A stretch of 36,187 nt of DNA, taken from assembly GCA_026708635.1 (NCBI GenBank), contig JAPOUP010000247.1, forward strand, positions 1-36,187. Reading direction: 5' to 3'. The DNA comes from Rhodobacter sp. (lineage in GTDB: Bacteria; Pseudomonadota; Alphaproteobacteria; Rhodobacterales; Rhodobacteraceae). The notes below the pieces were generated by a model. It saw only the letters and a list, made by a program, of their open reading frames with translations. It ran no database searches and was not told where the DNA came from. A program made the translations under genes and the position numbers. This document shows, one piece after another, positions 10,428 through 33,654 of this stretch (the stretch's first letter is position 1; each line of letters begins with the position of its first letter).

Positions 10428-11402
10428 TCAATGGCTTTTGGTTCGGAAATGGCGCTCTATCCGGCCCTGCGCCAGCTCCAGGCACATCGACAGCGCCCAA
10501 TAGATAAGTGCGGCGGTAATCAACATTTCCATGTGCTGGAACGTTTTGTTGCCCAGGGTACGCGCCAGGAACATCAACTCCCACACGCCGATAACGGACA
10601 CAAGTGAGCTGTCTTTCAGCATCGCGATGAACTGATTCCCGGTCGGCGGAATGATCAATGGCAGAGACTGCGGCAGGATGATACGGCGCATGGTCAATCC
10701 GAATTTGAAGCCAAGCGAACGGGACGCTTCCCACTGCCCTTTCGGTATCGACTGAATGCCCGCGCGAAAAATCTCCGTCATATAGGCGCCATAACACAGG
10801 GTCAGCGCGAGAATGCCCGCAGGTACCGCGTTGATCACATAACCCAGCTGCGGCAGGCCCAGGTAAATCAAATAAACCTGCATCAGTAGCGGAAGTCCGC
10901 GGAAGAAGGATGTGTAAAAGCTGGCGATCGCGTAGGCAAAACCGTTGGAAGAGAGTTTGGCCACCGCCCCGACAATTGCCAGAACGGATGCCAGCGCGAT
11001 GGAGATCGCCGATACGTAAAGCGTGGTGAATACGCCTTGCGAGACCATGAACCAGACCTTCGACCGGATGAAATTGAAATCCAGGTCAAACCCATAGAAA
11101 AACGCGAGAAACAACACCAACAGCTGTAGCCAGACGATGATCACCTGAAATTGAAACTTCAGAAAACCGATCAAAACGATGTTCAGGACAAACAGGATCG
11201 CCACGACCAAGCCGGTCGCGAACCGCCCGTATAGCCCGCTCTCCGCGGGCTCCCCGATCACCGGGCGCATCAGCTCACCGAAAATCGTTCCCGTTAGATT
11301 GAATAGAGTAAAGAGAAGGGTCGCAACTACGACCATCAGGACGATAATTGTCCCGGATTTGTGAACCAGTGGACCACTGGTCACAGTGTCTGCGTATAGC
11401 AT
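10428..11402 (-). CDS. Polar amino acid ABC transporter permease
   Basis: This 324-residue inner-membrane permease of the HisM/GlnP type has a long N-terminal part with several hydrophobic segments (IIVLMVVVATLLFTLF, FATGLVVAILFVLNIVLIGF, IIVWLQLLVLFLAFFYGF). The transport domain begins at GVFTTLYVSAISIALASVLA. The cytoplasmic EAA-loop equivalent is EASRSLGFKFGLTMRRIILP. I prefer the ATG at 11402. The longer GTG start at 11432 falls inside a strong stem-loop (11426-11457) and has no ribosome binding site. Its upstream neighbour is the binding-protein gene; downstream it is cut off from the ATPase gene by a transposase relic. Confidence 0.88.
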   Translation of the reverse strand: MLYADTVTSGPLVHKSGTIIVLMVVVATLLFTLFNLTGTIFGELMRPVIGEPAESGLYGRFATGLVVAILFVLNIVLIGFLKFQFQVIIVWLQLLVLFLAFFYGFDLDFNFIRSKVWFMVSQGVFTTLYVSAISIALASVLAIVGAVAKLSSNGFAYAIASFYTSFFRGLPLLMQVYLIYLGLPQLGYVINAVPAGILALTLCYGAYMTEIFRAGIQSIPKGQWEASRSLGFKFGLTMRRIILPQSLPLIIPPTGNQFIAMLKDSSLVSVIGVWELMFLARTLGNKTFQHMEMLITAALIYWALSMCLELAQGRIERHFRTKSH

Positions 11403-11425
11403 GGATTGGTATCCCGAAAGCGATC

Positions 11426-11457
11426 GGTCCACGCCCCAATCATTTGGGGCGTGGACC
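11426..11457. promoter_or_regulatory. Strong intercistronic stem-loop between binding-protein and permease genes
   Basis: GGTCCACGCCCCAA (11426-11439) and TTGGGGCGTGGACC (11444-11457) form a perfect 14-bp stem with a TCAT loop. It lies 13 nt after the binding-protein stop codon. There is no U-run after it in the minus-strand transcript. Such hairpins usually stabilise or partly terminate the message, giving more binding protein than permease. Confidence 0.75.
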
Positions 11458-11470
11458 TATCAGAACAGAA

Positions 11471-12307
11471 TTACCTGGTGCTGGTGTAGTCGATGCCGTA
11501 CCACTTTTCGCTCAACGCGGTAAGTGTGCCGTCAGCCTGCATATCGGCAACGATACCGGCAATCTTGTCGTTGAATTCGGCGTCTCCTTTGTCGATGGCA
11601 ATCGCCAGCGGTTCGTAGAAGACAGGTTCACCGAGAATCTTGATCGGGTAGTTGTTTTCGATCGCGTTCAAAAGCGCGGGCAGTGAACCGACCATGCCAT
11701 CCAGGCGGACACCGTCCCCTAGACGCAGGTCGTCCATCACAGCGGTCGAATCCTTATATGAGCGCAGCTCGCCCGGATCGATTTGATATTCGAAGGACGG
11801 AACGCCTTCGGCGTCAATGGTCAGATCCTTCTGCAGATACAGTTCGAACACGCTGGCGGTCGTGGCACCCACGACCTTGCCGTTCAGATCGCCCAAAGAA
11901 ACCGCGCCGCTGTCTCTATGCACCGCGGCGGCGGCGGGAGTGTAGTAATAGACGACCGGGAAATCCAGAACGTTGGACCGCTCCTTGGTTGGCGTCATGG
12001 AACCGACCGATACGTCCCAACGGCCATTCCAGTTACCGGCGGTGATAATGTCCCATGCAGGCGTTACAAATTCGACGTCGGCACCCATACGCTTGGCAAG
12101 CTCGCGTGCCACATCGACGTCGAAACCGTCCATTTCATTGTTTTCATTGAGAAAACTTTGCGGTGCCCAGTTGGCGTCTGTTGCCACCTTGAGCATTTTG
12201 TTCCCCATAATGCGATCCAGTGCCTCACCGGAGAGGCTGGCTCCAGCGGATAGCGCAACAAGCGTCATCGCAGTGGCGGCGGCGAGGGCGCGGCGAGTGA
12301 ATGTCAT
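11471..12307 (-). CDS. Amino acid ABC transporter substrate-binding protein
   Basis: This 278-residue periplasmic binding protein of family 3 (SBP_bac_3) starts with a Sec signal peptide, MTFTRRALAAATAMTLVALS, cleaved shortly after. The mature part has ATDANWAPQSFLNENNEMDG, FDVDVARELAKRMGADVEF and SVGSMTPTKERSNVLDFPVV. The TKER arginine is at the position that binds the ligand carboxylate in amino acid-binding members, so the ligand is probably an amino acid or amino acid-like compound. The ATG at 12307 has GGGAGA in front; a longer in-frame start at 12406 would put the signal peptide inside the protein. It is first in the transporter operon and divergent from the hydroxylase-aldolase genes. 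Confidence 0.9.
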   Translation of the reverse strand: MTFTRRALAAATAMTLVALSAGASLSGEALDRIMGNKMLKVATDANWAPQSFLNENNEMDGFDVDVARELAKRMGADVEFVTPAWDIITAGNWNGRWDVSVGSMTPTKERSNVLDFPVVYYYTPAAAAVHRDSGAVSLGDLNGKVVGATTASVFELYLQKDLTIDAEGVPSFEYQIDPGELRSYKDSTAVMDDLRLGDGVRLDGMVGSLPALLNAIENNYPIKILGEPVFYEPLAIAIDKGDAEFNDKIAGIVADMQADGTLTALSEKWYGIDYTSTR

Positions 12308-12364
12308 GGATGTCTCCCTGTCCATTTTATTCGGGTACCATTGCGCATTTTTATCCGGATTGGG

Positions 12365-12401
12365 CCAGAAAAAAATTTCTGGTAGTTGAAAAATTTTCAA
12401 C
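12365..12401. promoter_or_regulatory. Two adjacent palindromes upstream of the amino acid importer
   Basis: CCAGAAA-AAAA-TTTCTGG occupies 12365-12382 and GTTGAAAA-A-TTTTCAAC occupies 12385-12401, only 2 nt apart. Both have perfect arms (7 and 8 bp). They lie about 60-95 nt before the binding-protein ATG. They may be operator sites for a regulator of the importer; the protein that binds them is unknown. Confidence 0.5.
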
Positions 12402-12627
12402 CTCATGGCTTTAAGCTCGGGATTTCCGGCTCTGGGTCCCAGAACCTCTCCTCACGCATTACATACGGAATAGACAGCAGCACACGATCTTAAGTTCTGA
12501 AATCATTGAATTAATAGAAAGAGCAAGATGTTAGGGGCCCCTTTGCGCACACGGAAAGCGCTGGAGGCCATCATGTCGTTCGGTCTCCAGTTCGGCCACT
12601 TGATGCTTTTTTGTCATGATTGCGTGA

Positions 12628-12704: not shown

Positions 12705-13382
12705 ATGACCCATATCTCTCAAATCAAGGATGCCGATGTGGATATGATTCGGAACGCGATGTCCAGAATGCCTGATTATCAATCAGTTGCGGACTTCGTG
12801 TCCGGCCCGGGCATTGCCAAGCTGGATCTAAAATTCGACATCGAAAAGCTGCGGAAAGCACTCGCTGAGTGCCTGAAACGCGAGGCCTTCATGGGCGAGA
12901 TGCAGGATCAGGGCTTTGCCGCTTTGCCGCTGACCCAGCGCCCGGGTCAAACCGAATGGACTAAAAATGACCTCTCGGGCCGCTACTGGTTGCGCGCCGA
13001 TGAGCGCTATGTCGAAGAGCCACGCGAGGAACTGGTGCCTGAAATCGACTTCTCGGAATTCAACCCGAAGTTCAAAGGCACCTATTTTGAACATGTGCAT
13101 GAGGAACTGACCAAGCGCTTCCCGATTGGCCGCACTCGGATTCTGTCCAAGGGGCTGTACAACTGCAATTCCTGGCACCGTGACCCCGAGCCACGCCTGC
13201 ACATCCCGCTGATCTCGAACCCCGGTTCGCTCTTCATCGTGAACCACCACGTGACCCATCTGCCCGCGGACGGTTCGGTCTACTTCACCGATACCCGCGC
13301 CTATCACACCGCCCTGAACGGTGGCGAGAAGCACCGCGTGCACCTCGTTGCGGCCCTGGCCTACGACCAAATCACCGAATGA
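12705..13382 (+). CDS. Fe(II)/2-oxoglutarate dioxygenase, aspartyl/asparaginyl beta-hydroxylase type
   Basis: This 225-residue protein has a double-stranded beta-helix core of the aspartyl/asparaginyl hydroxylase class in its C-terminal half. NSWHRDPEPRLHIPLI (155-170) provides His158 and Asp160, YHTALN provides His201, and Arg211 in EKHRVHLV is the likely 2-oxoglutarate anchor. Vertebrate AspH has only the two histidines; here a full His-x-Asp...His triad is present, as in free amino acid hydroxylases such as cis-proline hydroxylases. The N-terminal 120 residues are not recognisable. GGGAGA precedes the ATG. The stop overlaps the aldolase start (ATGA). With the aldolase, this suggests beta-hydroxylation of a free amino acid that is then cleaved. 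The substrate is unknown. Confidence 0.75.
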   Translation: MTHISQIKDADVDMIRNAMSRMPDYQSVADFVSGPGIAKLDLKFDIEKLRKALAECLKREAFMGEMQDQGFAALPLTQRPGQTEWTKNDLSGRYWLRADERYVEEPREELVPEIDFSEFNPKFKGTYFEHVHEELTKRFPIGRTRILSKGLYNCNSWHRDPEPRLHIPLISNPGSLFIVNHHVTHLPADGSVYFTDTRAYHTALNGGEKHRVHLVAALAYDQITE

Positions 13383-14431
13383 GCCTTTATGGCCATGCCG
13401 CCGCGGATGCGGCCACGAACTGCATCTGCGATCTCCGCAGCGACACCCTGACCAAACCCGGCGCCGGCATGCGCGAGGCGATGATGAGCGCGCCGTTGGG
13501 GGATGATGTCTATGGCGAGGATCCGACGGTCGCCCGCCTGGAGCGGGAGCTGGCGACACGCCTGGGCAAGGGAGCGGCGATGTTTTTTCCCACCGGCACG
13601 CAGAGCAACCTGGCCGCGGTGATGGCGCATTGCGGACGCGGCGACGAGATGATCGTCGGTGACCGCTATCATCTCTATTGCGATGAGGCCGCTGGCGCAT
13701 CGGTTCTGACCGGTGTGTCGATGGTGCCCGTCGCGATGGCTACCGATGGCGGCCTTGACCCGGATGGAATTGCCGCCGCGATCAAGGTTGATGACCCCCA
13801 TTACGCCCGCAGCCGCCTGCTCAGCCTGGAAAACACTGTCGGTGGACGCGTGGTGTCACTTGATCGGATCGATGCCGGCGTTCAGGTCGCACGCGAGGCC
13901 GGTTTGTCCGTGCATCTAGACGGTGCCCGTTTCTTCAACGCGGTCACCGAGCTTGGTTGTGACGCGCGCCGACTGGCCGCGCCGATGGACACGATTTCCG
14001 TTTGTCTTTCCAAAGGCCTGGGAACGCCTGCCGGGTCGGTTCTGGTTGGCCCGCAAGAGATGATGGGACAACTCAGGCGCAACCGCAAAATCCTGGGCGG
14101 TGCAATGCGTCAATCCGGTGTCCTGGCAGCCGCGGGGCTGTATGCTCTGGAACATCATCTGCCGCAACTGGCAGAGGATCACGCCCATGCGGCCCGTCTG
14201 GCGGCAGCGCTTCGTGAAACGGGAATTGGCGCGGTTTCGTCGCATACCAACATGGTGTTTCTTACCCCTCAGGCCGGGGATCACGGCCGCCTGACCCAGC
14301 ACATGGCCGAAGCCGGGATCAAGATCGGCGGGCAATCACCGGCGATCCGCATGGTTTTGCATCGTGACGTCGATGACGACGCTCTTGAAGCCGCCATTCG
14401 CGCGTTTCAAAGCTTTGATCCCACTCATTGA
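13379..14431 (+). CDS. Threonine aldolase-family PLP enzyme (beta-hydroxy amino acid aldolase)
   Basis: This 350-residue fold-type I PLP enzyme of the L-threonine aldolase family cleaves beta-hydroxy-alpha-amino acids to glycine and an aldehyde. Visible motifs are LRSDTLTKPGAGMREAM and GDDVYGEDPTVARLE near the N-terminus, FFPTGTQSNLAAVMAH, SVHLDGARFFNA (Asp181, PLP ring) and CLSKGLGTPAGS with the Schiff-base Lys212. His98 lies in the YHLY segment near the family's active-site histidine. Its start overlaps the hydroxylase stop by 4 nt. This coupling suggests that the real substrate is the hydroxylase product rather than threonine. The glycine formed would join the product of sarcosine oxidation. 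Confidence 0.88.
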   Translation: MSLYGHAAADAATNCICDLRSDTLTKPGAGMREAMMSAPLGDDVYGEDPTVARLERELATRLGKGAAMFFPTGTQSNLAAVMAHCGRGDEMIVGDRYHLYCDEAAGASVLTGVSMVPVAMATDGGLDPDGIAAAIKVDDPHYARSRLLSLENTVGGRVVSLDRIDAGVQVAREAGLSVHLDGARFFNAVTELGCDARRLAAPMDTISVCLSKGLGTPAGSVLVGPQEMMGQLRRNRKILGGAMRQSGVLAAAGLYALEHHLPQLAEDHAHAARLAAALRETGIGAVSSHTNMVFLTPQAGDHGRLTQHMAEAGIKIGGQSPAIRMVLHRDVDDDALEAAIRAFQSFDPTH

Positions 14432-14518: not shown

Positions 14519-15838
14519 ATGAGTGACGTTATCTCTTTCATTTCAAATACCCGATACGACGACCTGCCTGAATCGGTGATCCAGAACGCGGTAAACGCCT
14601 TGGTGGACACTCTGGGCGTCGGCATGAGCGCGGTGCAAACTGATATGTCCCGGATTATCTCAGCGCATGCGGCGCATATGTTTGGCGGAAACGCCGCGCA
14701 GATCTGGCCTGATGGCCGCAAAGCCAGCGCGGCCGGAGCAACGTTGGCCAACGGTATTACCATTGACAGTCTCGATGCCCATGATGGCCATAAATTGACC
14801 AAGGGCCATGTGGGCTGCGGAGTGATTCCGGCGGCAATTGCCATGGCGCAGGCCGAAGGCGTTACGGATGCGCGCGAGTTTCTGACCCTTGTGACCATTG
14901 GCTATGAGATCGGCACGCGCGCGGGCATCGCGCTGCACCGCAGTGCCTGCGATTATCACACGTCGGGAGCCTGGGTGGCGCTCGCCGCCGCCGCCATGGG
15001 CGCGCGCGTCCTTGGGCTGGGCGAGGCCCTGATACGCGAAGCCCTGGGCATTGCCGAATATCACGGGCCGCGCAGCCAGATGATGCGGGTGATCGATGCG
15101 CCGACTATGGTCAAGGACGGCTCCGGCTGGGGGGCGATGGCCGGCGTCTCCGCCGCTTATCTGGCCCGCGACGGGTTCACCGGCGCACCGGCCATTTCGC
15201 TAGAGGCTGAAGATCTGGCCGATATCTGGGACGATGTCGGCGCCTGCTGGTATATCCAGGATCAGTATTTCAAATTCTATCCCGTTTGCCGTTGGGCCCA
15301 GCCCGCCGCCGAGGCGGTAATGACCTTGCATCGTGATCACGAATTTAACCACAGCGATATCACCGCGATTCGCGTGGAAAGCTTCCACGAGGCCAAGCGG
15401 CTCAATGCTATCCCGAACAACACTGAACAGGCGCAATACTCGCTGCCTTTCTCGGTTGGGGCGGCGCTGGTCAAGGGTACAATCGGTGTGGACGAGGTGA
15501 TGGAGCCGGGCCTGACCAATTCTGACATTCTGCGGCTGACCCGGATGGTCGAGATCGAGGAAACCGATACGTTCAACGCGGCCTTCCCCGCGCGCCGTTT
15601 TGCGCAGGCCCATATCACGCTGGCCGACGGGCGCGTTCTGACATCAGGGGTGACCGAGGCACAGGGCGACCCGGAAAATCGGGTCAGCCATGATGTCATT
15701 CGTGACAAATTCCTGCGCCTTAGCGAACCTGTGATGGGGCGGGACAAGGCAAGGGCCCTGTTGGCAGGCATTGAAGCCTTGCCCGCGAACGGAGATCTTG
15801 GGGCGATGATTGCGCAACTCAGCCATAAAGAGATGTAG
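14519..15838 (+). CDS. MmgE/PrpD family protein
   Basis: This 439-residue protein belongs to the MmgE/PrpD family, which includes 2-methylcitrate dehydratase, cis-aconitate decarboxylase and an iminodisuccinate epimerase. Typical segments are VDTLGVGMSA near the N-terminus, SLDAHDGHKLTKGHVGCGVI (about 80-100), and YFKFYPVCRWAQPAAEAVM (about 254-272). The order and length fit the whole family, but the motifs do not reveal the substrate. It lies 87 nt after the aldolase gene on the same strand, with a weak purine-rich site (AAAGAGA) before the ATG. It probably acts on the same pathway, either on the imported substrate (for example an epimerisation) or on the aldehyde-derived acid. Its role is inference. 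Confidence 0.85.
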   Translation: MSDVISFISNTRYDDLPESVIQNAVNALVDTLGVGMSAVQTDMSRIISAHAAHMFGGNAAQIWPDGRKASAAGATLANGITIDSLDAHDGHKLTKGHVGCGVIPAAIAMAQAEGVTDAREFLTLVTIGYEIGTRAGIALHRSACDYHTSGAWVALAAAAMGARVLGLGEALIREALGIAEYHGPRSQMMRVIDAPTMVKDGSGWGAMAGVSAAYLARDGFTGAPAISLEAEDLADIWDDVGACWYIQDQYFKFYPVCRWAQPAAEAVMTLHRDHEFNHSDITAIRVESFHEAKRLNAIPNNTEQAQYSLPFSVGAALVKGTIGVDEVMEPGLTNSDILRLTRMVEIEETDTFNAAFPARRFAQAHITLADGRVLTSGVTEAQGDPENRVSHDVIRDKFLRLSEPVMGRDKARALLAGIEALPANGDLGAMIAQLSHKEM

Positions 15839-16056: not shown

Positions 16057-18383
<2,327 letters not shown>

Positions 18384-20932: not shown

Positions 20933-22486
20933 TTATGGCTCCCCCGCTCCAATTTCTTCTTTGCGGTGAGCGATGTAGGTTTCCAGTTCTTCGGCAATGG
21001 CCGGATCCAGCACTGGCTCCCGGTATTCCCCGAGCGCACGTTGCCAGAGTTCAGTCGCCCGGGTCAGGGCATCCTTGGCCCCCGCGGCCTCCCATGCGCC
21101 GTGACCGGTCCAATCCGAGAGGATTGGTTTGTAAAACGCGGTTTCATAGCGTTCCAATGTGTGGGAGGTGCCGAAGAAATGGCCCCCGGTTGGCACATCG
21201 GCGATTGCGTCAAAGCCCAGCTCGCCTTCTGAGAAGTCGATCGGCTTGAGCAGCTCCATCATGTTCTGGATGATCTCGACATCGAGGATCAGCTTTTCGT
21301 AGGAGGCGGTCAATCCCCCCTCAAGCCAGCCGGCCGCGTGATAGACCATATTGGCGCCACCCATGACCGCGCCCCAAGTCGCCATCGAGGTTTCATAGGC
21401 CGCCTGCAAATCCACCGCGTTCGACGCGTTGGCATTCGAGGTGCGATAGGGAATCCTGTAGCGTCGCGCGAGCTGTCCCGCGATCAGGTTCGCCTTGGTG
21501 TTTTCTGGCGTGCCGAAAGCCGGCGCACCGGATTTCATATCCACATTCGAGGTAAACGCTCCATACATGACCGGGGCCCCGGGGCTCACCAGCTGGGTCA
21601 GCGCGATGCCAAACAGGGCTTCGGCGTTTTGCTGTGTCAGAGCGGCCGGCAGGCTGACCGGGGTCATCGCGCCCATCAGGGTAAAGGGGGTCACGGAAAC
21701 GGGCTGGCCGTGAAGGGCCATGGCGATCAGCCCTTCCGCCATTTCTCCATCCAGAAGACGCGGCGAGTTAACGGAGATGATGGTGATGATCCCGGGATCC
21801 GTCTCCATTTCCTCGGGAGAGATGCCGCGCGCGATGGCCATCATATTGATACCATCCATCGCTCTACCCTTGCCGATGGCGGTGCAATGAAAGGACAGAT
21901 CGCTGAGGCGCAGATTGGCGCGATAAGTATCCAGATGGCGGTTATTGGCCGGCAATTCCATTGGTGCGGTGACTTGGTTTCCGATGATATTGATCGCGTT
22001 GAAATGATGCGCGAGGCGTATGAAATTCTCGTAGTCCGCGAGGTTGCCCGAGCGCCGCCCGGTTATGCAGTCATGTACATTGGGAGGCCCCGCCACCAGT
22101 CCGAACGCCACGTTTCGCCCGCCGATGGTCAACTTTTTCGCGGGATTGCGTCCGGTCAGGGTAAAGGTCTCGGGGACCGTGCGGAGCGCCTCATCGATCA
22201 CTTCCGCGTCAATTCGGATCGTATCTTCACCGCGGTCAACCTTGGCGCCCGCCGCTTCGAATATGTCCATGACGCGCGCGCTCATCACGCGGATACCCAG
22301 CTCCGACAGAATCTTTAGCGAGGTGTTGTGGATCGCTTCGATCTGCTCTCGGGTCGCCAACTCCATCGGCGCATAAGGGTTATGGAGGTTTTGCCACGAT
22401 AGCTGCGAAATGGGGGCCGAGCCCCGGCCTGCCCGGCCTCGACGACCACCGCTCCGGCGTTCGCGTGTTTTATCTACGTTACTCAT
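20933..22486 (-). CDS. MttB-like (trimethylamine/glycine betaine methyltransferase superfamily) protein without pyrrolysine
   Basis: This 517-residue protein is of the MttB superfamily (COG5598). Visible features are a basic N-terminal extension (RERRSGGRRGRAGRG), NPYAPMELATREQIEAIHNT, VAFGLVAGPPNVHDCITGRR, SPGAPVMYGAFTSNVDMKSG and SNANASNAVDLQAAYETSMA. Archaeal MttB reads through an amber codon for pyrrolysine. Here no in-frame TAG interrupts the gene, so it is a non-pyrrolysine member like glycine betaine methyltransferase MtgB. Those enzymes transfer a methyl group to a corrinoid protein, but no corrinoid-protein or MtvA/MtgA gene is visible in the window. It is first in a four-gene operon with dimethylglycine and betaine oxidation genes. 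Confidence 0.82.
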   Translation of the reverse strand: MSNVDKTRERRSGGRRGRAGRGSAPISQLSWQNLHNPYAPMELATREQIEAIHNTSLKILSELGIRVMSARVMDIFEAAGAKVDRGEDTIRIDAEVIDEALRTVPETFTLTGRNPAKKLTIGGRNVAFGLVAGPPNVHDCITGRRSGNLADYENFIRLAHHFNAINIIGNQVTAPMELPANNRHLDTYRANLRLSDLSFHCTAIGKGRAMDGINMMAIARGISPEEMETDPGIITIISVNSPRLLDGEMAEGLIAMALHGQPVSVTPFTLMGAMTPVSLPAALTQQNAEALFGIALTQLVSPGAPVMYGAFTSNVDMKSGAPAFGTPENTKANLIAGQLARRYRIPYRTSNANASNAVDLQAAYETSMATWGAVMGGANMVYHAAGWLEGGLTASYEKLILDVEIIQNMMELLKPIDFSEGELGFDAIADVPTGGHFFGTSHTLERYETAFYKPILSDWTGHGAWEAAGAKDALTRATELWQRALGEYREPVLDPAIAEELETYIAHRKEEIGAGEP

Positions 22487-22578: not shown

Positions 22579-22597
22579 TCTGATTTCATAAATCAGA
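22579..22597. promoter_or_regulatory. Palindrome over the stop codon of the GbdR-like gene
   Basis: TCTGATTT (22579-22586), CAT, AAATCAGA (22590-22597) is a perfect 8-bp inverted repeat. It covers the stop codon of the regulator gene and lies about 95 nt before the methyltransferase start. It could be an operator for the betaine operon or a weak terminator; no U-run follows. Confidence 0.4.
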
Positions 22598-23588
22598 CAT
22601 AGCGTGTCACAATTTTTCGGCGCGTCTGCGACGGGCTCTCGCCGAACTGCGCTTTGTAGCTACGGCTAAAATGGCCAAGGCTGGAAAAGCCACAGATCTC
22701 GGCGATCACCTCTAGCGGCTCGGTAGAGGACAGCACCATCCCCCGCGCTGCCCGCAGCCGCAGTTCCAGATAAAACCGTGAGGGTTGGGTCTGGACTCCA
22801 CCACTGAACAATCGCGCCAGTTGCCGTTTCGACAAATCGACCTGCTCGGCGATCCAGGAAAGTGGTTTGGGATTACCCAGGTGCGCCTGCATCAGTTCGA
22901 TTGCCTTTAACAGGCGCGGATCATTGACGCGGAACCGCCACTGGGCGTCCTGGCGTTGCATCTGAGTGGGCGGGCGAATCTGACCATGCAGAAACTGTTC
23001 GGCCACGTCATTCGCCAAAGTCGCTCCATGCACCTTGGTGATCAGCGCCAGCATCAGATCCATCGCGGCCGCCCCGCCGGCAGATGTCAGCACGTCGCGG
23101 TCCCAACAGTAGATTTCCCTGGAGGCATTCACATGGGGAAACGCCGTTTCCAGCGCTCGTTCGGTTTCCCAGTGGATGGTCACCCGGTGGTTGCCGAGCA
23201 CCCCGGCCCGCGCGAGTAGCAAGGTGCCGCTGCTGACCGCGCCGATCATTCGCCCCGTCGAGCGCAGCCGGCGCAACCGTGAGAACAGGGTCGCATTCCC
23301 ATAGTTTTCGGGGAGAAAACTGGCAACCAATATGGTCAGATCAGCGGTGGGAGCATCCGCAAACCCGTAGTGTGTCGCAATTTCAATCCCGCTGCTGGAG
23401 GCGGCATGCCCGACCCGTTCGCTAACCAGAGTCCAGTTAAACAGCGGGACTCCGGCCAAGCGATTGGCCGCCCGCAAGGGCTCGATGGCGGACGTCAGGG
23501 CCATCATCGAAAACCCGTCGATCAAGATGAACTGTATATCCATGGTGGGGTGGGAACCGGTGCGGCGCCCTTGCGGCTCTTGGCCCAT
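22593..23588 (-). CDS. GlxA-family AraC-type regulator, GbdR-like
   Basis: This 331-residue regulator has a DJ-1/PfpI-like N-terminal domain (about 17-200; FILIDGFSMMALTSAIEPLR, VSSGTLLLARAGVLG, SAGGAAAMDLMLALI) and an AraC HTH domain (about 230-325). The HTH contains LSWIAEQVDLSKRQLARLF and LEVIAEICGFSSLGHFSRSY. In Pseudomonas the homologous GbdR senses glycine betaine or dimethylglycine and activates gbcAB, dgcAB and sox genes. Here the gene lies directly upstream of the methyltransferase-dehydrogenase-oxygenase operon on the same strand, 106 nt away. The start at 23588 has AGGGG 6 nt upstream; a second ATG at 23543 is possible and would fit the family length equally well. Confidence 0.85.
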   Translation of the reverse strand: MGQEPQGRRTGSHPTMDIQFILIDGFSMMALTSAIEPLRAANRLAGVPLFNWTLVSERVGHAASSSGIEIATHYGFADAPTADLTILVASFLPENYGNATLFSRLRRLRSTGRMIGAVSSGTLLLARAGVLGNHRVTIHWETERALETAFPHVNASREIYCWDRDVLTSAGGAAAMDLMLALITKVHGATLANDVAEQFLHGQIRPPTQMQRQDAQWRFRVNDPRLLKAIELMQAHLGNPKPLSWIAEQVDLSKRQLARLFSGGVQTQPSRFYLELRLRAARGMVLSSTEPLEVIAEICGFSSLGHFSRSYKAQFGESPSQTRRKIVTRYV

Positions 23589-26341: not shown

Positions 26342-27475
26342 CTATCGGAACATCGGCGGCCGAGCGTCCATCCAGGTACCATGCATCTTCGCGGAGGCGA
26401 CCGTCGCATGCACCGCGGCCATGGACCTGAGGCCGTCGACCGCGGTTGGCAAAGCTTCGCGAGTGTCGCCACGGATCGTGGCCGCCAGATCCATGTAGAT
26501 GTTGGCGACAGCCAACGGAAATCCCTCGGGATGCGCGATGGCGACACGGCTCAGACCCACCACCTCACCGGACAGTCCCGCCTCGCCCTTCTCCATGATC
26601 TGCGTCCGCCCCCCCAGCGGTGTCCACATCACCTGGTTGGGCTGTTCGGAGGCCCACCTGAAACCGCCTCCCTCGCCAAACACCTGGATATCCAGCCCGT
26701 GCTGCCGACCGACCGCGACGGACGATGTCCAGAGACGGCCCACGACACCTCCCGCCGTACGGTAACAGACCATTGCCTCGTCCTCGAGCTCCCTGGACGG
26801 GATGCAGGAGGCGAAATCCGCGGACAGCGTTTCCACATCGTCGTCGGTGACGAAATTCGCCAGATGCAACGCATGGATTCCACAGTCAGCCATCTGTCCG
26901 GACGCTCCCGCCAGAGCCGGATCGTAGCGCCAGCGCACCCTGGGATTGCCGACGTCCCCGCCATCCGCGTGATGACCGTGACTGAAGTTCGCGACAACAA
27001 GCCGGATGGCCCCCAGATCCCCGCGGCGCACCATCGCCCTCATCTCCCGCACCATCGGATAGGCGGAATAACAGTAGTTCACGGCACAGGTTCGGCCACA
27101 CCGTTCGGCGACCCGGACAACTTCCTCGCCCTCCTCCACGGTCATCGTCATCGGCTTTTCGCACAGAACGTGAAATCCGGCCTCAAGGAACGCTTTGGTG
27201 ATCTCGAAATGGGTGGAATTTGGCGTTGCCACGGTAACCAGGTCGACGCGGTCGGCGCGGTTGCGCTCACCCCCAAGCATTTCCTGCCAGGTTCCGTAAG
27301 CCCGCTCCTCATCCACGCCAAGTTCGATAGCGTATGAGCGGCCCTCATCGGGCCTGTGATCCAGCGCCCCCGCGACCAACGCGAAATTACCGTCCGCCTG
27401 CGCCCCGATTCGGTGAACGGAACCGATCTGGCTTCCCCTCCCACCACCTATCAAGCCCCAGTTGAGCCTTTTCAT
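26342..27475 (-). CDS. Gfo/Idh/MocA family oxidoreductase (sugar or inositol dehydrogenase)
   Basis: This 377-residue NAD(P)-dependent dehydrogenase has an N-terminal Rossmann fold with NWGLIGGGRGSQIGSVHR, the catalytic-lysine motif HVLCEKPMTMTVEEGEE (the EKP Lys is family-typical) and a C-terminal alpha/beta domain with MADCGIHALHLANFV. I chose the ATG at 27475 (MKRLNWGL), with GAGG 6 nt upstream; it leaves a 7-nt gap after the TIM-barrel gene. The earlier start at 27493 would overlap that gene. It is last in a three-gene minus-strand operon with another Gfo/Idh gene, opposite iolC-iolB-aldolase. It probably oxidises an inositol or sugar, but the exact substrate is not readable. Confidence 0.87.
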   Translation of the reverse strand: MKRLNWGLIGGGRGSQIGSVHRIGAQADGNFALVAGALDHRPDEGRSYAIELGVDEERAYGTWQEMLGGERNRADRVDLVTVATPNSTHFEITKAFLEAGFHVLCEKPMTMTVEEGEEVVRVAERCGRTCAVNYCYSAYPMVREMRAMVRRGDLGAIRLVVANFSHGHHADGGDVGNPRVRWRYDPALAGASGQMADCGIHALHLANFVTDDDVETLSADFASCIPSRELEDEAMVCYRTAGGVVGRLWTSSVAVGRQHGLDIQVFGEGGGFRWASEQPNQVMWTPLGGRTQIMEKGEAGLSGEVVGLSRVAIAHPEGFPLAVANIYMDLAATIRGDTREALPTAVDGLRSMAAVHATVASAKMHGTWMDARPPMFR

Positions 27476-27482
27476 GCGGACC

Positions 27483-28373
27483 TCAGAATCCAATTGATTT
27501 CAGGTAAGAGCCATTATGTGCGCTGTCATCGAGCGGCGAGGTCCCGCCAAGCGGGTCACAGTCCTGCTCGACCGTGCACCACCCATCGAAACCACTGTCG
27601 AGCAGAAGCGCGCGCACTGCCGGAAAATCCACGTATCCCAGTCCAAGTTTGCAGAAAATACCCTGTGCGCAGGCGTCATAGAATCCGGTGCGCCGGGCAA
27701 TGACGTCCGCCTTCACCGCTGGATCGATATCCTTGAAGTGCACGTAGCTGATACGTCCGATATGCCGGCGCATGAAGGCAAGCGGATCGTAGCCCGCATA
27801 GCTGTGATGGCCGGTGTCCAGGCATATCTTGAGAATGGAATCGTCGACCTGGTCAAGAAGCCGCTCAAGTTCGGGCTCGAAATCCATAAATCCCGCCGCG
27901 TGGGCATGGACGCCGACGGTCAGCCCGAATTCCTCGCTGCCGATCCGGGCGATCGTCCGGAACCGCTCCACGAAAGCGTTCCATTCCGCCCGCTCCATCT
28001 GTTCGGCTTCGTCAATGCGGCCTGCCGTGTGCGCGCGCCGCGGGGAAATCGCGTCGATCAGGACAAGATGCTCGGCACCATGCGCGGCGAGTGTCTTACA
28101 GGTACGCACCGACCCATCCCGCACATCCTCCCACTTCGCGGGATCATGAAATGCGCGGAAGACAACGCCACCTATCAGTGTCAGCTCATGTTCGGCCAAT
28201 GCGTCTCCCAGCTCGGACGGATCCTCAGGCATGTAGCCGACCGGACCCAATTCCACTCCACTGAAACCCGCCTGCCGGCATTCCCTCAGAACCTGTTTCC
28301 AGGGCGGGTTACGCGGATCGTCCGCGAACTCAACTCCCCAGGAGCAGGGCGCGTTGCCAATCCGGATAGTCAT
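27483..28373 (-). CDS. Sugar phosphate isomerase/epimerase-type TIM barrel (inosose dehydratase-like)
   Basis: This 296-residue xylose isomerase-like TIM-barrel protein is of the IolE/IolI class (COG1082). It begins GNAPCSWGVEFADDPRNPPW and has GVELGPVGYMPEDPSEL, VGVHAHAAGFMDF, ICLDTGHHSYAGYDPL and YVHFKDIDPAV. The Glu and His/Asp residues of these strands are the usual divalent-metal ligands. It sits between two Gfo/Idh dehydrogenases (9 nt and 7 nt gaps), so it probably acts on the keto product of one of them, as inosose dehydratase does in inositol breakdown. Sequence alone does not separate dehydratase from epimerase or isomerase. Confidence 0.83.
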   Translation of the reverse strand: MTIRIGNAPCSWGVEFADDPRNPPWKQVLRECRQAGFSGVELGPVGYMPEDPSELGDALAEHELTLIGGVVFRAFHDPAKWEDVRDGSVRTCKTLAAHGAEHLVLIDAISPRRAHTAGRIDEAEQMERAEWNAFVERFRTIARIGSEEFGLTVGVHAHAAGFMDFEPELERLLDQVDDSILKICLDTGHHSYAGYDPLAFMRRHIGRISYVHFKDIDPAVKADVIARRTGFYDACAQGIFCKLGLGYVDFPAVRALLLDSGFDGWCTVEQDCDPLGGTSPLDDSAHNGSYLKSIGF

Positions 28374-28382
28374 TCGTTCAGC

Positions 28383-29495
28383 CTAAATGATGTCATCGAG
28401 CGATATCCATGAACCCGACTCGTGCGACGCGAACGCCGCTTCAACTATGCGCCGCACCTCCAGCCCGTCGCGGAAAGTGGGCCAGACCTGCGTTCCAGTC
28501 TCGATCGCCGTCAGGAAATCCTTCGCTTCAATGATGATCTGGTCCTGATATCCCGTTCCATGTCCCGGCCCCCTGCAGAACGGAAGATAGTCGGGGTGCG
28601 CCGGCCCTGCGAGAATTTTCCGGAATCCCCGTCGCTCGGGCGGATCGGAAGCATCGTAATACCAAAGCGCGTTCTGGTCCTCCTGATCGAAGCGGATCGA
28701 GCCTGCCGTCCCCGCAATCTCGTATGCATAACCCATCTTGCGGCCGGTCGCGACGCGACTTCCGAACAGATGGCCCATCGCGCCGTTCGCGAACCGCACC
28801 ATCATCTGCACCTGATCATCGTTCGTGACTTCGCGGCCACCGCGCCGCTCATGTACGGTCTCTATCCGCGCCGACAGCGAGTCGACCGGTCCCACCAAGG
28901 CTAGCGCCGCATTGAAGATGTGGGGGGCAAGGTCGCCGATGCAGCCGTTGGCCCGGCCCGCGTACCGCCACGCGGCGACATCGGTTTCGTTATGGAAATC
29001 TTCGGTGTGCTCGCCCCTGAACCAGGTAATGCGTCCAAGGGCGCCTTCATTTACCATGCGGCGCGCGTATTGCGATGCCGGCGTGCGTATGTAGTTGTAG
29101 GCGACCATATTCGGGCAACCCGACCTCTTCGCCGCGGCCACCATGGCGCGCGCATCCTCCAGCGAGGCACCCATCGGTTTCTCGCACATCACCGGAAGGC
29201 CCCGATCGAGAGCCGCGACGGCGATCTCGCGGTGAGTGGCCTGAGGCGACGCGATGACGACAGCCTCGATCCCGGGGTCGGAGACAAGGTCTCGCCAGTT
29301 CCCCGTCGCCCGCGCGAATCCATAAGCGACGCGATAGCGCTCGGCGCTCTCCGGTGTGTTCGCGGCGATCATCTCCAGGCGCGGACGAAGCCCGGTCGCG
29401 AAAACCGCGCCCACCGCGGCCATGGCCACCGAATGAGCCTTGCCCATATAGCCTCCGCCGACAATGCCAACCGCTATCTCTTTCATCCCTGACAT
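28383..29495 (-). CDS. Gfo/Idh/MocA family oxidoreductase, second copy
   Basis: This 370-residue dehydrogenase has an N-terminal GIVGGGYMGKAHSVAMAAVG dinucleotide motif, GLPVMCEKPMGASLEDARAM with the EKP lysine, and CIGDLAPHIFNAALALVGPV in the C-terminal domain. It differs strongly from the other Gfo/Idh protein of the operon, so each probably has its own substrate or they act at different steps. It is the first gene of the minus-strand operon and divergent from iolC across 121 nt. The ATG at 29495 has only a weak ribosome binding site; an ATG three codons later (AGGG in front) is an alternative. The likely role is oxidation of inositol, an inositol isomer or a related sugar. Confidence 0.87.
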   Translation of the reverse strand: MSGMKEIAVGIVGGGYMGKAHSVAMAAVGAVFATGLRPRLEMIAANTPESAERYRVAYGFARATGNWRDLVSDPGIEAVVIASPQATHREIAVAALDRGLPVMCEKPMGASLEDARAMVAAAKRSGCPNMVAYNYIRTPASQYARRMVNEGALGRITWFRGEHTEDFHNETDVAAWRYAGRANGCIGDLAPHIFNAALALVGPVDSLSARIETVHERRGGREVTNDDQVQMMVRFANGAMGHLFGSRVATGRKMGYAYEIAGTAGSIRFDQEDQNALWYYDASDPPERRGFRKILAGPAHPDYLPFCRGPGHGTGYQDQIIIEAKDFLTAIETGTQVWPTFRDGLEVRRIVEAAFASHESGSWISLDDII

Positions 29496-29616
29496 GATCC
29501 GCTTGAGACTCGGTTCCCGTCCCTTGCGTCACTGAATTGGCTGACGTCAAGTTACCGCTGGAGGGCAAACACGCCTCCGAAAGGTTTCCTTTCATGGCTG
29601 ATAGGAGTGTGGTGCA
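29496..29616. promoter_or_regulatory. Divergent promoter region of the inositol-type locus
   Basis: This 121-nt gap separates the two divergent sugar operons. It contains the 8-bp palindrome TGACGTCA at 29542-29549, and GCGTCA occurs again 16 nt upstream. It may be an operator for a repressor encoded outside the window; no IolR or other regulator gene is adjacent. Confidence 0.35.
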
Positions 29617-30621
29617 TTGGACAGCAAAGTGGGGGCGGTTCATCGCGTGCCCGGGTTCGCCTCCGACAGGTTTCTGGTGATCGGTCGCGCGGGAATGGAT
29701 TTCTACGCCGATCCGCCGGGAACGCGTCTGGAGATTGGCGACCGGTTCGTAGCCGCGCTGGGCGGTTCCTCGGCCAACATAGCGGCCGGGCTCTGTCGAC
29801 AGGGTGGCAGGGCCGCGCTTCTCACATGCGTATCGGACGATCCCGTAGGCGGGTTCTGCCTCGGAAAGCTCGCGGAATTCGGCGTTGAGACGCAATATGT
29901 TAGCAGGACTGGCGGTGAGGCGCGCACGTCCCTTGCGGTGTGTGACACCCGAGGCGACGGGACCCGGGTCGTCATCTACCGGAATGGCGCCGCCGACCTC
30001 CTGATGGCCGTGGAAGACGTAAGGCGCGCCGACATCGCGGGATTCGGCGGATTGGTCACAACCGGCACCGCACTTGCCAGCGAGCCTTCGCGCTCCGCGA
30101 CACTCATGGCGATCGAAGCGGCCCGCGCCGCCGGGATCACGACCGTGTTCGACCTCGACTACCGTCCGTACTCATGGCCGGACGCGGACACAAGTTCCCG
30201 CATCTATACAAAGGTCGCGGAGAAATGTGACATAATTGTCGGAAACGACGATGAATTCGGAGTACTCGCGACGAACTTCCGCGATGGGCTTGGTGCCGCG
30301 CGCGGGTTGGCACGGGGCGGAAGAACGGTAATTTACAAGATGGGCCACCGGGGATCGATTGCCTTGACCCCCGATCGCGAAATCCACACCGGCACCTTCA
30401 AGGTTGACGCTCTAAAACCCACCGGCGCGGGCGATGCGTTCATGGCCGGCTTCCTGATTGCCATGGCCCGTGGCCGCTCGCTACGCAGCTCGATCGTCCG
30501 GGGATCGGCCGCCGCCGCCATTGTGGTCACACGCGTTGGCTGCGCTCAGGCCCAACCAACGGCTGAGGAACTTGACCGCTTCGTCTCAACCCACCAAATC
30601 CGGAACCCTTCCGAGGAGTGA
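29617..30621 (+). CDS. iolC: 5-dehydro-2-deoxygluconokinase (IolC)
   Basis: This 334-residue PfkB-type sugar kinase strongly resembles alphaproteobacterial IolC. FLVIGRAGMDFYADPPGTRL and VAALGGSSANIAAGLCRQGG are at the N-terminus, TVFDLDYRPYSWP and IIVGNDDEFGV lie in the middle, and the catalytic anion-hole motif KPTGAGDAFMAGFL contains the base Asp. IolC phosphorylates 2-deoxy-5-keto-D-gluconate in the inositol pathway. The best start is a TTG at 29617 with AGGAG 9 nt upstream. It is followed 3 nt later by iolB. In relatives iolD and iolE normally lie alongside; iolD is absent here. Confidence 0.9.
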   Translation: MDSKVGAVHRVPGFASDRFLVIGRAGMDFYADPPGTRLEIGDRFVAALGGSSANIAAGLCRQGGRAALLTCVSDDPVGGFCLGKLAEFGVETQYVSRTGGEARTSLAVCDTRGDGTRVVIYRNGAADLLMAVEDVRRADIAGFGGLVTTGTALASEPSRSATLMAIEAARAAGITTVFDLDYRPYSWPDADTSSRIYTKVAEKCDIIVGNDDEFGVLATNFRDGLGAARGLARGGRTVIYKMGHRGSIALTPDREIHTGTFKVDALKPTGAGDAFMAGFLIAMARGRSLRSSIVRGSAAAAIVVTRVGCAQAQPTAEELDRFVSTHQIRNPSEE

Positions 30622-30624
30622 AAC

Positions 30625-31467
30625 ATGCACATCCCACCATTCGACAACCGTAACCTACCCATTGTTGATGTCGGGAATCCCACGGTTCCGCTAAATTATT
30701 TCAACATCGTCAAACTCGGGAAAGGCGAAACCTTCAGCTACCGCGCACCGGGCATCGAGACCTGCGTGGTTCCGGCGACCGGCACGGTGAGTCTCGATAT
30801 CCAGGGCCATAAGGTCGCGGCTCTCGGAAACCGAAACAGGGATGTCTGGGACGGCGAGCCTGAAGGCGCGTACGCGCCAACCGGCGTGCGGGTCGAAATG
30901 GTCTGCGCATCCGACGGATGCGAAGTATTCGTCGCGGGCGCCCCGTTCGAAAACGTGCTTGAGCCGTTCACTGTCCGGTCCCATGAGCTGGATCTCGTCC
31001 AGTATGGATCTGACGCGACCAAGACCCACCGGAAAATAAAACACATACTTGGACAGAAACAGTCGGGAAGGGTCGGACGGCTGTTGGTAAGCGAACTGTT
31101 CACCGTCGGTGCTGGCGGATGGTCGGGCTTTCCAAGCCATAAGCACGATACGGATCGTTTGCCCGATGAGACCCATCACGACGAGACATATAACTTCCGC
31201 TTCAGACCAAGCCATGGAACCGGCATCCAAATGCTTCAGCGCGAGGACGGATCGTCAGGCGACGCATATCATATCGTTGACGGATCGACCGTCTGTATTG
31301 ACAGAGGCTATCATCCATGCGCCGCGCTGCCGGGCTACGAGATGTACTATTTCACTATCCTTGGCGGCGCGTCGCAGCGGCCGCTGGTTCAGTATTTCCA
31401 GCCAAGCCATGCCTACCAGGTGGAGACGATTCCGGGGATCAAGGACATGATCGCCAAGTTCGGATGA
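30625..31467 (+). CDS. iolB: 5-deoxy-glucuronate isomerase (IolB)
   Basis: This 280-residue cupin-fold isomerase converts 5-deoxy-glucuronate to 2-deoxy-5-keto-gluconate, the IolC substrate. The metal site is in GFPSHKHDTDRLPDETHHDE (HKHD, then a Glu followed by Y-x-F). The N-terminal RNLPIVDVGNPTVPLNYFNI and the C-terminal EMYYFTILGGASQRPLVQYF with IPGIKDMIAKFG are typical of the family, and the length is normal. The gene sits 3 nt behind iolC, and its stop overlaps the aldolase start (ATGA). The cluster therefore processes the lower inositol pathway. Confidence 0.92.
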   Translation: MHIPPFDNRNLPIVDVGNPTVPLNYFNIVKLGKGETFSYRAPGIETCVVPATGTVSLDIQGHKVAALGNRNRDVWDGEPEGAYAPTGVRVEMVCASDGCEVFVAGAPFENVLEPFTVRSHELDLVQYGSDATKTHRKIKHILGQKQSGRVGRLLVSELFTVGAGGWSGFPSHKHDTDRLPDETHHDETYNFRFRPSHGTGIQMLQREDGSSGDAYHIVDGSTVCIDRGYHPCAALPGYEMYYFTILGGASQRPLVQYFQPSHAYQVETIPGIKDMIAKFG

Positions 31468-32291
31468 CACTGGCAACCCTCAAGGACGTTCTGACGCCAG
31501 CCAAGCGGGACGGCTATGCCGTGGCCGGACTGGTGGTGCTCGGCTGGGAGGACGCCCGGGCCTACGTGGCCGCCGCCAACGCGGAGGATGTTCCGGTAAT
31601 CCTGCAGGCGGGGCCAGGCTGTCGGGCGCATACGCCGCTTCCGGTTCTTGCCGCCATGTTCCGTCATCTCGCGGAAACGGCCACCGTGCCCGTCGTGGCC
31701 CACCTTGACCACGCGCGTTCGGTGGAAGAATGCGAGGAGGCCATCCGCTGCGGATTCTCGTCAGTGATGTTCGATGGCTCACAACTCGCGCTTGACAAAA
31801 ACATCGAGGAGACCGCGAAAGTCACCCGCCTGGCCCATCGTTCGGGCGTTTCGGTGGAAGGTGAGATTGGATTCGTGGGCTATGATGGCGGTGCGTCATC
31901 CCACGGCACCGACCCCGAGGAAGCGCGTCTGTTCGCGGACGGTACCGGTATCGACGCGATGGCCATTTCCATCGGAAACGTTCACCTGCGGCGTGCGCGA
32001 AGCGCCAAGCTCGATTTCGGGCTTCTTCGCCGCATAGAAAACCTGACGGACGTTCCGCTTGTCCTGCATGGCGGCTCGGGAATACCCCATGCCCAGCGTC
32101 GGATGCTGGCCCTCGACTCCAAGGTCTGCAAGTTCAATGTCGGCACCGAGCTTCGCCAGGTATTCGGAGCCTCACTCCGGGCCGAACTCGCGAACAACAT
32201 CGGTGAGTTCGACCGGATCAGGCTCCTGGCTGCGATCGAGCCCTCATTATGCGAGGCCGCGAGGGCCATAATTCGTACGTTTAGCCGATGA
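31464..32291 (+). CDS. Class II fructose-bisphosphate aldolase-type enzyme (IolJ-like)
   Basis: This 275-residue class II aldolase has the zinc-binding VVAHLDHARSVEEC segment near residue 80, SVMFDGSQLALDKNIEET, VEGEIGFVGYDGG, VLHGGSGIP and KFNVGTELRQ in the family order. The start at 31464 overlaps the iolB stop by 4 nt; longer open sequence upstream in the same frame is antisense-like shadow of iolB. In inositol breakdown the matching enzyme (IolJ) splits 6-phospho-5-dehydro-2-deoxygluconate into dihydroxyacetone phosphate and malonate semialdehyde. It completes the IolB-IolC-aldolase order. A tagatose- or fructose-bisphosphate role cannot be excluded. Confidence 0.87.
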   Translation: MTLATLKDVLTPAKRDGYAVAGLVVLGWEDARAYVAAANAEDVPVILQAGPGCRAHTPLPVLAAMFRHLAETATVPVVAHLDHARSVEECEEAIRCGFSSVMFDGSQLALDKNIEETAKVTRLAHRSGVSVEGEIGFVGYDGGASSHGTDPEEARLFADGTGIDAMAISIGNVHLRRARSAKLDFGLLRRIENLTDVPLVLHGGSGIPHAQRRMLALDSKVCKFNVGTELRQVFGASLRAELANNIGEFDRIRLLAAIEPSLCEAARAIIRTFSR

Positions 32292-32479
32292 GGCGGAACT
32301 CTGGCTGGAACCTCCCGTTTCCACCGCCAAAGTCGTGAATTGCCTTATAATGCCACTCTCACACTTCTTGATTAACCCTCGGAGGGCGTTCAGCCTGAGA
32401 ACATTGACCACATGGTGTCTTAATTCTTGCGGCGAAATCAAAAGAACGGTCGTTTTGGGTCGTTGAGCAACACTCATAA
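32292..32479. other. Intergenic, no gene
   Basis: This is an A+T-richer stretch between the aldolase and a livF-like fragment. It contains no recognisable reading frame and no clear U-tracted hairpin. It may hold the promoter of the TRAP transporter operon. Confidence 0.4.
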
Positions 32480-32629
32480 ATGGCCGAAGAGATCGCGGAC
32501 GCCTATCAGGTGCTGGATAACGGACACATCGTCCTGGAAGGCGCGACGGCAGCGCAGTCTTTTCACATCGAACGCAAGCAAGTAGGGATGAAACTTACCA
32601 AGCCACCAAAACGGAGGATACAACCATGA
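32480..32629 (+). pseudogene. 3' fragment of a LivF-type ABC ATPase gene leading into dctP
   Basis: An open frame of 49 codons begins MAEEIADAYQVLDNGHIVLE and continues GATAAQ before becoming unrelated. The first part matches the C-terminal end of branched-chain amino acid or urea ABC ATPases (LivF/UrtE), where LADRxYVLxxGRIVLEG is common. Walker and signature motifs are absent. The frame ends in TGA that overlaps the dctP ATG (ATGA), and GGAGG for dctP lies inside it. It is a relic rather than a functional gene, but if translated it could couple to dctP. Confidence 0.55.
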
Positions 32630-33654
32630 AGATCAAGAGCTTTTTAGCGGCTTTGACTGCCTTGGCGCTGACCGGCACCCCTGCGATCGCGCAGGATGTC
32701 ACTTTACGGTTCCAACACTTCATTTCGCCAAATGGCGCGGTGCCCGCAGGCTTTATGAAACCATGGGCGGATAAGGTGATGGCGGACTCCGGCGGTCGCC
32801 TTAAAATCGAATTGTATCCGGGCATGCAGTTGGGCGGAAAGCCGCCCGCCCTTTATGACCAGATCCGTGACGGTGTGATCGACGGCGGATGGGCGTTGCC
32901 CGCATACACGCCCGGCCGGTTCCCGGAGACGGAGGTTTTCGAACTGCCCTTTGTCTCGTCAAAATCGGCGGAAGAAACCTCACGCGCGGCTTGGGAGTAT
33001 TCCCAGACCCATCTAGCCGAACGAATGGGCGACGTGCATTTGATCGCGGTCCATGTGCATGGGTCCGGCATCGTGCATACCAAGGGCGAGCCGATCACCA
33101 GCGTCGCCGATTTCGCGGGCAAAAAGCTGCGCGGGCCGTCCCGCGCGGCCAATAATCTCTTGAGCGCGATGGGGGCGACACCCGTTGGCATGCCCGTTCC
33201 GGCCTTTCCGGAATCGCTTTCCAAAGGCGTGGTCGAAGGCGGGGTGATCCCATGGGAAATCGTGTTGCCGCTTAAAGTACACGAATTGACCGACAGCCAC
33301 AGCGAAGTGTCAGGTGACAGGTCGATGTACAACACCTTCTTCATCTGGGCGATGAACAAGGACAGCTACAACAACCTGCCTGACGATCTCAGGGCGGTCA
33401 TTGATGCTAATTCCGGCCTGGAAGCCTCGGCTTGGGCGGGGCGGGCCATGGATCAGGGTGACGCGGCGGCCAAGGAGGTCGTACGGGGAACCGACAATGC
33501 GATCGTGATGATGTCGGATGCCGCGACGGCCGAAATCATGGCCATTGCGGAGACGCAGATCGCCGAGTGGATCGAGACCATGAACGGTGCCGGATTGCCG
33601 GGCCAGGAGATGCTGGATACCGCACGTGCCCTGATCGAAAAACACGGCAAATAA
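32626..33654 (+). CDS. TRAP transporter substrate-binding protein (DctP family)
   Basis: This 342-residue periplasmic binding protein has a Sec signal peptide (MKIKSFLAALTALALTGTPA, cleavage after about residue 22). The mature protein has LRFQHFISPNGAVPAGFMKP, LYPGMQLGGKPPALYDQIRD, GKKLRGPSRAANNLLSAMGA with the family's ligand-binding Arg, and GGVIPWEIVLPLKVHELTDS. DctP-type proteins capture carboxylate-bearing solutes. GGAGG precedes the ATG. The membrane genes dctQ and dctM follow only after 520 nt because an IS5 relic intervenes. The ligand is unknown; the neighbouring inositol-type locus makes a polyol or sugar acid possible. Confidence 0.9.
   Translation: MKIKSFLAALTALALTGTPAIAQDVTLRFQHFISPNGAVPAGFMKPWADKVMADSGGRLKIELYPGMQLGGKPPALYDQIRDGVIDGGWALPAYTPGRFPETEVFELPFVSSKSAEETSRAAWEYSQTHLAERMGDVHLIAVHVHGSGIVHTKGEPITSVADFAGKKLRGPSRAANNLLSAMGATPVGMPVPAFPESLSKGVVEGGVIPWEIVLPLKVHELTDSHSEVSGDRSMYNTFFIWAMNKDSYNNLPDDLRAVIDANSGLEASAWAGRAMDQGDAAAKEVVRGTDNAIVMMSDAATAEIMAIAETQIAEWIETMNGAGLPGQEMLDTARALIEKHGK

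Follow-up and report, generated by a model that had tools for sequence, protein, structure and literature searches.

The MttB-superfamily methyltransferase described here is, in our judgement, likely to be a corrinoid-dependent quaternary-amine methyltransferase that uses a hub encoded in trans, the MtgC-type corrinoid protein of a split methionine synthase, and its substrate is probably not glycine betaine. The gene lies in a stretch of 36,187 nucleotides of Rhodobacter sp. DNA (the window), which is one entire contig of a 3.52-Mb draft assembly of 337 contigs that is 96.5% complete.

The best explanation of the gene content, conservation, co-occurrence and residues reported below is the following reaction course, in which activity, methyl flow and substrate class are predicted. 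A trimethylammonium compound of the betaine type would bind in the TIM barrel of the window MttB, and one methyl group would pass to the cob(I)alamin of the single MtgC-type corrinoid protein, encoded elsewhere. From this protein the methyl group would go to tetrahydrofolate (by an MtgD-type protein) or to homocysteine (by an MtgE-type protein). A RamA-like protein and DUF1638 would keep the cobalamin active, and the dimethylated product would be oxidised by the neighbouring dimethylglycine dehydrogenase (DMGDH)-like enzyme.

The MttB gene and its neighbourhood

The MttB gene and the genes around it are listed in Table 1. The product matches the Pfam MTTB family (PF06253) with 661.8 bits, from profile position 1 to 500 of 500. 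The pyrrolysine-type equivalog (TIGR02369) has a cut-off of 525 bits, which the protein misses with 302. The frame of 517 amino acids is open and has no amber codon where pyrrolysine would be encoded, so that the protein lacks this residue. Relatives of known structure are 4yyc, MtgB (2qne, 9yce), which is a glycine betaine methyltransferase, and MttB (7xcl). The protein is thus a predicted quaternary amine:corrinoid-protein methyltransferase.

Table 1. Features at and near the MttB gene, in window coordinates
Feature	Position	Strand	Basis or remark
Non-pyrrolysine MttB-superfamily (COG5598/PF06253) methyltransferase, 517 aa	20933..22486	-	Pfam MTTB, PDB relatives, pocket residues
DMGDH-like FAD and GcvT-folate protein, 802 aa	18488..20896	-	Pfam DAO, FAO_M, GCV_T and GCV_T_C
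Rieske oxygenase, Stc2 (stachydrine N-demethylase) type, not GbcA	17148..18368	-	Structure and model scores
Oxygenase reductase (FAD/NAD/2Fe-2S), GbcB/Stc4-like	16057..17199	-	Overlaps Rieske gene
GbdR-like AraC/DJ-1 regulator, predicted local regulator	22593..23588	-	GbdR model 257.9 bits, below cut-off of 480
Fe/2-oxoglutarate beta-hydroxylase-like protein, convergent cluster	12705..13382	+	PF05118 22.3 bits, just under cut-off of 22.6
Low-specificity threonine aldolase family, convergent cluster	13379..14431	+	NF041359 397 bits, PRK10534 361 bits, both over cut-off
MmgE/PrpD family protein, convergent cluster	14519..15838	+	Profile match, conserved near MttB

On the minus strand MttB is followed after 36 bp by the DMGDH-like gene and, after a further 119 bp, by the Rieske gene with its overlapping reductase gene. 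The DMGDH-like protein scores 565 bits against mammalian DMGDH structures and is predicted to catalyse the next demethylation step, yielding methylene-tetrahydrofolate. A preliminary description, made from the sequence alone, had the coordinates of MttB exactly, and its assignment to the non-pyrrolysine MttB proteins is borne out by the scores and open frame given above. It also placed MttB at the head of an operon. The three genes are indeed downstream, but the GbdR-like regulator is found 106 bp upstream on the same strand, so MttB may not strictly head the transcript.

Four full copies of MttB and one fragment are present in the source genome. The fragment consists of the C-terminal part alone (G000 contig C187, positions 4808-5035, locus L012; profile positions 424-499 in a frame of 119 amino acids). 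It occurs about 5 kb from a RamA-like gene and is probably the remnant of a lost paralogue. A divergent copy is present on contig C47.

Sarcosine oxidase is the usual final step in glycine betaine demethylation. Genes for a heterotetrameric sarcosine oxidase occur on the plus strand of the window at 346-4941 (SoxB 675 bits, SoxA 1312 bits, both over their cut-offs); the MttB operon is 11 kb away. Another GbdR-like AraC regulator (7682-8746, minus strand; 231 bits, under the cut-off) adjoins an amino-acid/ectoine-like ABC transporter at 8834-12406. Judged by eye from the translations, the region 26342-36063 is likely to be a catabolic cluster for an inositol-type sugar. It would encode a TRAP transporter, two oxidoreductases, proteins resembling a sugar-phosphate isomerase and IolB, a kinase and an aldolase. 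No Rfam RNAs or riboswitches reached the gathering threshold in the window or in five partner or paralogue loci.

The neighbourhood was compared in 80 related MttB loci (47-87% identity). The count of neighbour genes used a cut-off of 35% of query length and left aside matches at or under half length or below E 1e-10. Of the 71 loci with 2.5 kb of sequence past MttB, 39 have a DMGDH-like gene immediately downstream, and such a gene occurs somewhere in the flanking sequence in 56 of 80. The closest relative (locus L022) keeps the regulator, MttB (87%), DMGDH (87%), PrpD, aldolase and hydroxylase. Sixteen loci have an MttB of at least 70% identity, and in 14 of them an MmgE/PrpD relative (41-84%) is found nearby. 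At four roseobacter loci (L162, L163, L023 and L036) the MttB orthologues (73-78%) adjoin hydantoinase A/B and an Asp/Glu racemase, and several of these clusters also include a transaminase, an MmgE/PrpD protein or sarcosine-oxidase subunits.

Probable corrinoid partners encoded in trans

No corrinoid protein or pterin-binding methyltransferase is present in the window, the profile matches in the whole genome being all on other contigs. The sole PF02607 protein of the genome is a free-standing corrinoid protein of 254 amino acids with the motif DIHDIG. It is encoded on contig C107, where it adjoins a homocysteine S-methyltransferase (PRK07534, 579.7 bits, cut-off 338) and a DUF1638 protein. 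Because this is the only match, the PF02607 search found no classical MetH in the source genome. There are two pterin-binding proteins, of which the one on contig C268 matches the methyl-H4F:corrinoid methyltransferase model PRK07535 (397.9 bits, cut-off 259) and adjoins a weakly MetF-like gene. A RACo/RamA-like activase is encoded by one gene on C187, which crosses a run of N. The genome thus holds the free corrinoid protein, pterin-binding methyltransferase and RamA-like activase of the MtgBCD set. This partner set is a predicted split methionine synthase plus two reactivation proteins, as in the marine relatives Phaeobacter inhibens and Ruegeria pomeroyi.

The preliminary description had presented the enzyme as being without a corrinoid partner, a claim that falls with the free-standing corrinoid protein and the activase. 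It had offered as one alternative that the partners lie elsewhere, and here it was right: they are single-copy on C107, C268 and C187, together with DUF1638. The genome search that it proposed, for MttC-like and MtgA/MtvA-like genes, was run and returned the corrinoid protein and the CH3-H4F:corrinoid methyltransferase. A gap in the draft assembly is an unlikely cause of a missing partner, since the partners were found on other contigs.

Co-occurrence was examined in 101 genomes of the same family, from 55 genera. MttB and a free corrinoid protein occur together in 94 genomes, both are absent from six, MttB occurs alone in one and the corrinoid protein alone in none (Fisher p 5.5e-9, uncorrected for the shared ancestry of these related, non-independent genomes). 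RACo is present in exactly the same 94 genomes as the free corrinoid protein. By a hand count, 27 PF02607 matches of less than 50 bits were left out of the table, having been classed as regulators from length and score only; as none is in the seven genomes that lack the free corrinoid protein, the table is unaffected. A protein search of these seven genomes with the C107 sequence gave only MetH-sized frames. G039 is the only genome of the 101 with an MttB (one) in which the free corrinoid protein and RACo are absent, and is an unexplained exception.

The 95 genomes with MttB have a median of three and a maximum of 11 MttB matches, fragments included, and 93 of the 94 genomes with a free corrinoid protein have a single one. 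Many MttB proteins per corrinoid protein would be expected if substrate-specific methyltransferases feed one hub. In Eubacterium limosum several MttB paralogues (MtpB, MtcB and MtyB) likewise act on different betaines and share one corrinoid protein, MtqC (PMC8604678); this species is an anaerobic acetogen, unlike the source organism, and the likeness is taken from the published description.

Corrinoid-system genes of at least 50% identity were found within the 10-kb flank of a same-clade MttB in 12 of the 80 related loci, several of which are from Mesorhizobium and so are non-independent. MtgC (72%) and DUF1638 are near MttB at locus L074, and RamA is near it at L071 and L097. At L069, which is outside these 12, there is only a corrinoid-system match of 25%.

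These observations bear on a reading, also raised in the preliminary description, in which this subgroup needs no corrinoid protein and the methyl group goes to another acceptor. The partner gene's absence from the window and the exception G039 are all that speaks for it. MttB is missing from six of the seven genomes that lack the free corrinoid protein, all 94 that have it also have MttB, and same-clade MttB genes adjoin corrinoid-system genes in other species. Since MttB follows the free corrinoid protein and RACo from genome to genome, we reject a different acceptor and consider it extremely improbable.

The shared-hub system that we favour has close counterparts. In R. pomeroyi, knockouts have shown that both methionine synthesis and growth on glycine betaine depend on MtgC and MtgD, and a single genome may carry up to seven PF06253 genes (Mausz et al., PNAS 2025, PMC12478193). 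The MtgBCD(E) system of R. pomeroyi DSS-3 resembles the one proposed here in its PF06253 methyltransferase, its single shared corrinoid protein with a second role in methionine synthesis, its dispersed genes, its several PF06253 paralogues and the MetF-like gene beside the pterin-binding subunit. It is likened by family, and differs in that the window MttB has a changed predicted pocket and is in an operon with an Stc2-type oxygenase. In P. inhibens, RamA-like and DUF1638 proteins accompany a split methionine synthase (Price et al. 2018, PMC5764234). The same domain set is found on C107, C268 and C187; unlike here, the P. inhibens set is described for methionine synthesis only.

The Stc2-type oxygenase pair

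The Rieske protein scores 750 bits against PDB 3n0q and 656 bits against Stc2 of Sinorhizobium meliloti (3vca/4qup). The Stc2 contacts A223 and W353 and the CxxC pair C202 and C205 are all kept. With the GbcA model (NF058607) it scores 494.3 bits, under the cut-off of 670, and the S. meliloti Stc2-type protein scores 496.5 bits, also under it. An identification as GbcA was rejected on this cut-off and on the equal score of the Stc2-type protein. The oxygenase, previously described as betaine-type, thus resembles the stachydrine demethylase Stc2 rather than GbcA, and proline betaine demethylation would be a candidate activity. In S. meliloti, Stc2 stands with its reductase only and without MttB, unlike in the window operon.

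Among the 80 related MttB loci a Rieske gene is found in one (27% identical) and the reductase in none. A wider sample of 295 genomes, one per genus, includes 12 others with an MttB at least 66% identical; a Rieske of the window type (at least 55% identity) is present in one of these 12 (G336), on another contig, and beside MttB in none. At nine homologous Rieske loci (71-82% identity, 1.5 kb flank) the reductase is adjacent in all nine and DMGDH or MttB in none. In L022 an aldehyde dehydrogenase occupies the position of the Rieske pair, and no remnant of it was found in the window (best match 22 residues, E 2.9). A conserved MttB-oxygenase operon was rejected on these counts, and as judged from gene order the oxygenase pair is a local addition to the MttB operon. 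Base composition gives no support for a recent foreign piece, the G+C of the pair being 0.59 against 0.60-0.62 for its operon neighbours. A literature search for an MttB-Stc2 operon gave none described among the matches listed, the closest being the PNAS paper (PMC12478193).

These results also concern the idea that MttB and the Rieske oxygenase could each carry out the first demethylation of one substrate, such as proline betaine, with MttB serving at low oxygen. The preliminary description had likewise suggested an oxygen-independent route alongside the oxygenase. The Rieske gene is on the same strand, only 119 bp past DMGDH, with unbroken base composition (0.59-0.62 G+C), its Stc2 contacts and CxxC pair are intact, and proline betaine is demethylated by MtpB of E. 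limosum (PMC8604678). The pairing, however, is not conserved: it is as good as absent from the 80 loci, the closest relative has the aldehyde dehydrogenase instead, and homologous Rieske genes have only the reductase next to them. We regard two routes for one substrate as unlikely.

In a hand count across the 295 genomes, Rieske relatives (at least 43% identity) are present in six of the 14 genomes without MttB and in 57 of the 281 with MttB, as if the oxygenase sometimes replaced the B12 route.

The predicted pocket and the substrate

In MtgB of Desulfitobacterium hafniense (DhMtgB), docking into a homology model places Tyr94, Asn199, Arg309 and His345 in contact with glycine betaine (Creighbaum et al., PMC6855144). 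The window MttB is, like DhMtgB (2qne/9yce), a non-pyrrolysine MttB homologue (phmmer 297 bits over 42-513). The four positions align with A132, S238, R348 and H383 (the chain index in the alignment is one higher than the published numbering), so two of the four predicted contacts, Arg309 and His345, are kept, and the window MttB has Ala for Tyr94 and Ser for Asn199. DhMtgB also differs in coming from an anaerobe, where it has an MtgC and an MtgA of its own.

The pocket was aligned in 109 sequences, one per locus, leaving out loci without a match over 400 amino acids. Arg348 and His383 are kept in 108 of the 109, the exception being the C47 copy. Ala-Ser-Arg-His is the state of the window clade (46 sequences), and wider relatives mostly have A-N-R-H, G-N-R-H or S-N-R-H. 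A paralogue of the same genome, on contig C226, has all four predicted contacts (Y-N-R-H), as do 19 C226-type relatives. In the tree the window group and the C226 group are separated with support near 1. Because two of the four predicted pocket residues are changed and these are kept in C226, the substrate is probably not glycine betaine; the pocket model suggests a different quaternary amine, perhaps a bulkier one, as the probable substrate of the window enzyme, and the C226 paralogue as the better glycine-betaine candidate.

Some features of the window suit glycine betaine, namely the neighbouring DMGDH, the GbdR-like regulators and the sarcosine oxidase genes. The enzyme might accordingly be seen as a second glycine betaine methyltransferase (MtgB2) of an R. 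pomeroyi-type system. With DMGDH directly next to MttB, regulators at 22593-23588 and 7682-8746 and sarcosine oxidase, the window genes together give a full route from glycine betaine through dimethylglycine and sarcosine to glycine, and two PF06253 proteins are induced on glycine betaine in R. pomeroyi (PMC12478193). The Ala and Ser in place of Tyr94 and Asn199, at positions where C226 and its 19 relatives keep Tyr-Asn-Arg-His, argue against this assignment, which we hold to be possible but doubtful.

The changed pocket could also mean that the gene is a relic, or was recruited to a function other than methyl transfer, in a genome that also has an MttB fragment (C187) and a divergent copy (C47). 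The frame is nevertheless full length and matches all 500 profile positions, the Arg and His are invariant in all sequences except C47, and Ala-Ser-Arg-His is common to the 46 sequences down to about 62% identity, which indicates that the pocket change is old and selected. A relic or recruited gene is therefore very improbable.

The hydroxylase-aldolase-dehydrogenase set of L022 suggests an amino-acid betaine as substrate, although the set is seen in two genomes only and several of the family calls are under curated cut-offs. The window hydroxylase matches the beta-hydroxylase PDB 7v4f with E 1e-19. The latter belongs to caprazamycin biosynthesis (PMC9814697), a link that does not identify the substrate of the window protein. 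It is conceivable, though quite unlikely, that the window and L022 encode a pathway for a trimethylated amino acid other than glycine betaine, with the first methyl group removed via B12. Its parts would be the amino-acid ABC transporter, the Fe/2-oxoglutarate beta-hydroxylase-like protein, the threonine-type aldolase, the MmgE/PrpD protein and, in L022, the aldehyde dehydrogenase. MttB and the DMGDH-like protein would strip the methyl groups, the first entering the methionine/folate pool through B12. Trimethyllysine via gamma-butyrobetaine would be one chemically sensible case; a literature search for a bacterial trimethyllysine route gave nothing relevant among the matches listed. In the source genome the Stc2-type pair may have taken the place of the aldehyde dehydrogenase, maybe widening the substrate range.

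The mechanism is already known in kind, the window enzyme being most likely a member of an aerobic MtgB-type system with its partners in trans. Its tie to a shared MtgC hub removes the apparent paradox of an 'orphan' corrinoid-dependent methyltransferase in an aerobe, and the co-occurrence table of 101 genomes supports this hub independently of the single bench-tested species. The analysis also points out an MttB clade whose predicted pocket is unfit for glycine betaine; the range of methylated compounds drained via B12 in marine and soil Alphaproteobacteria is therefore probably wider than has been assayed.
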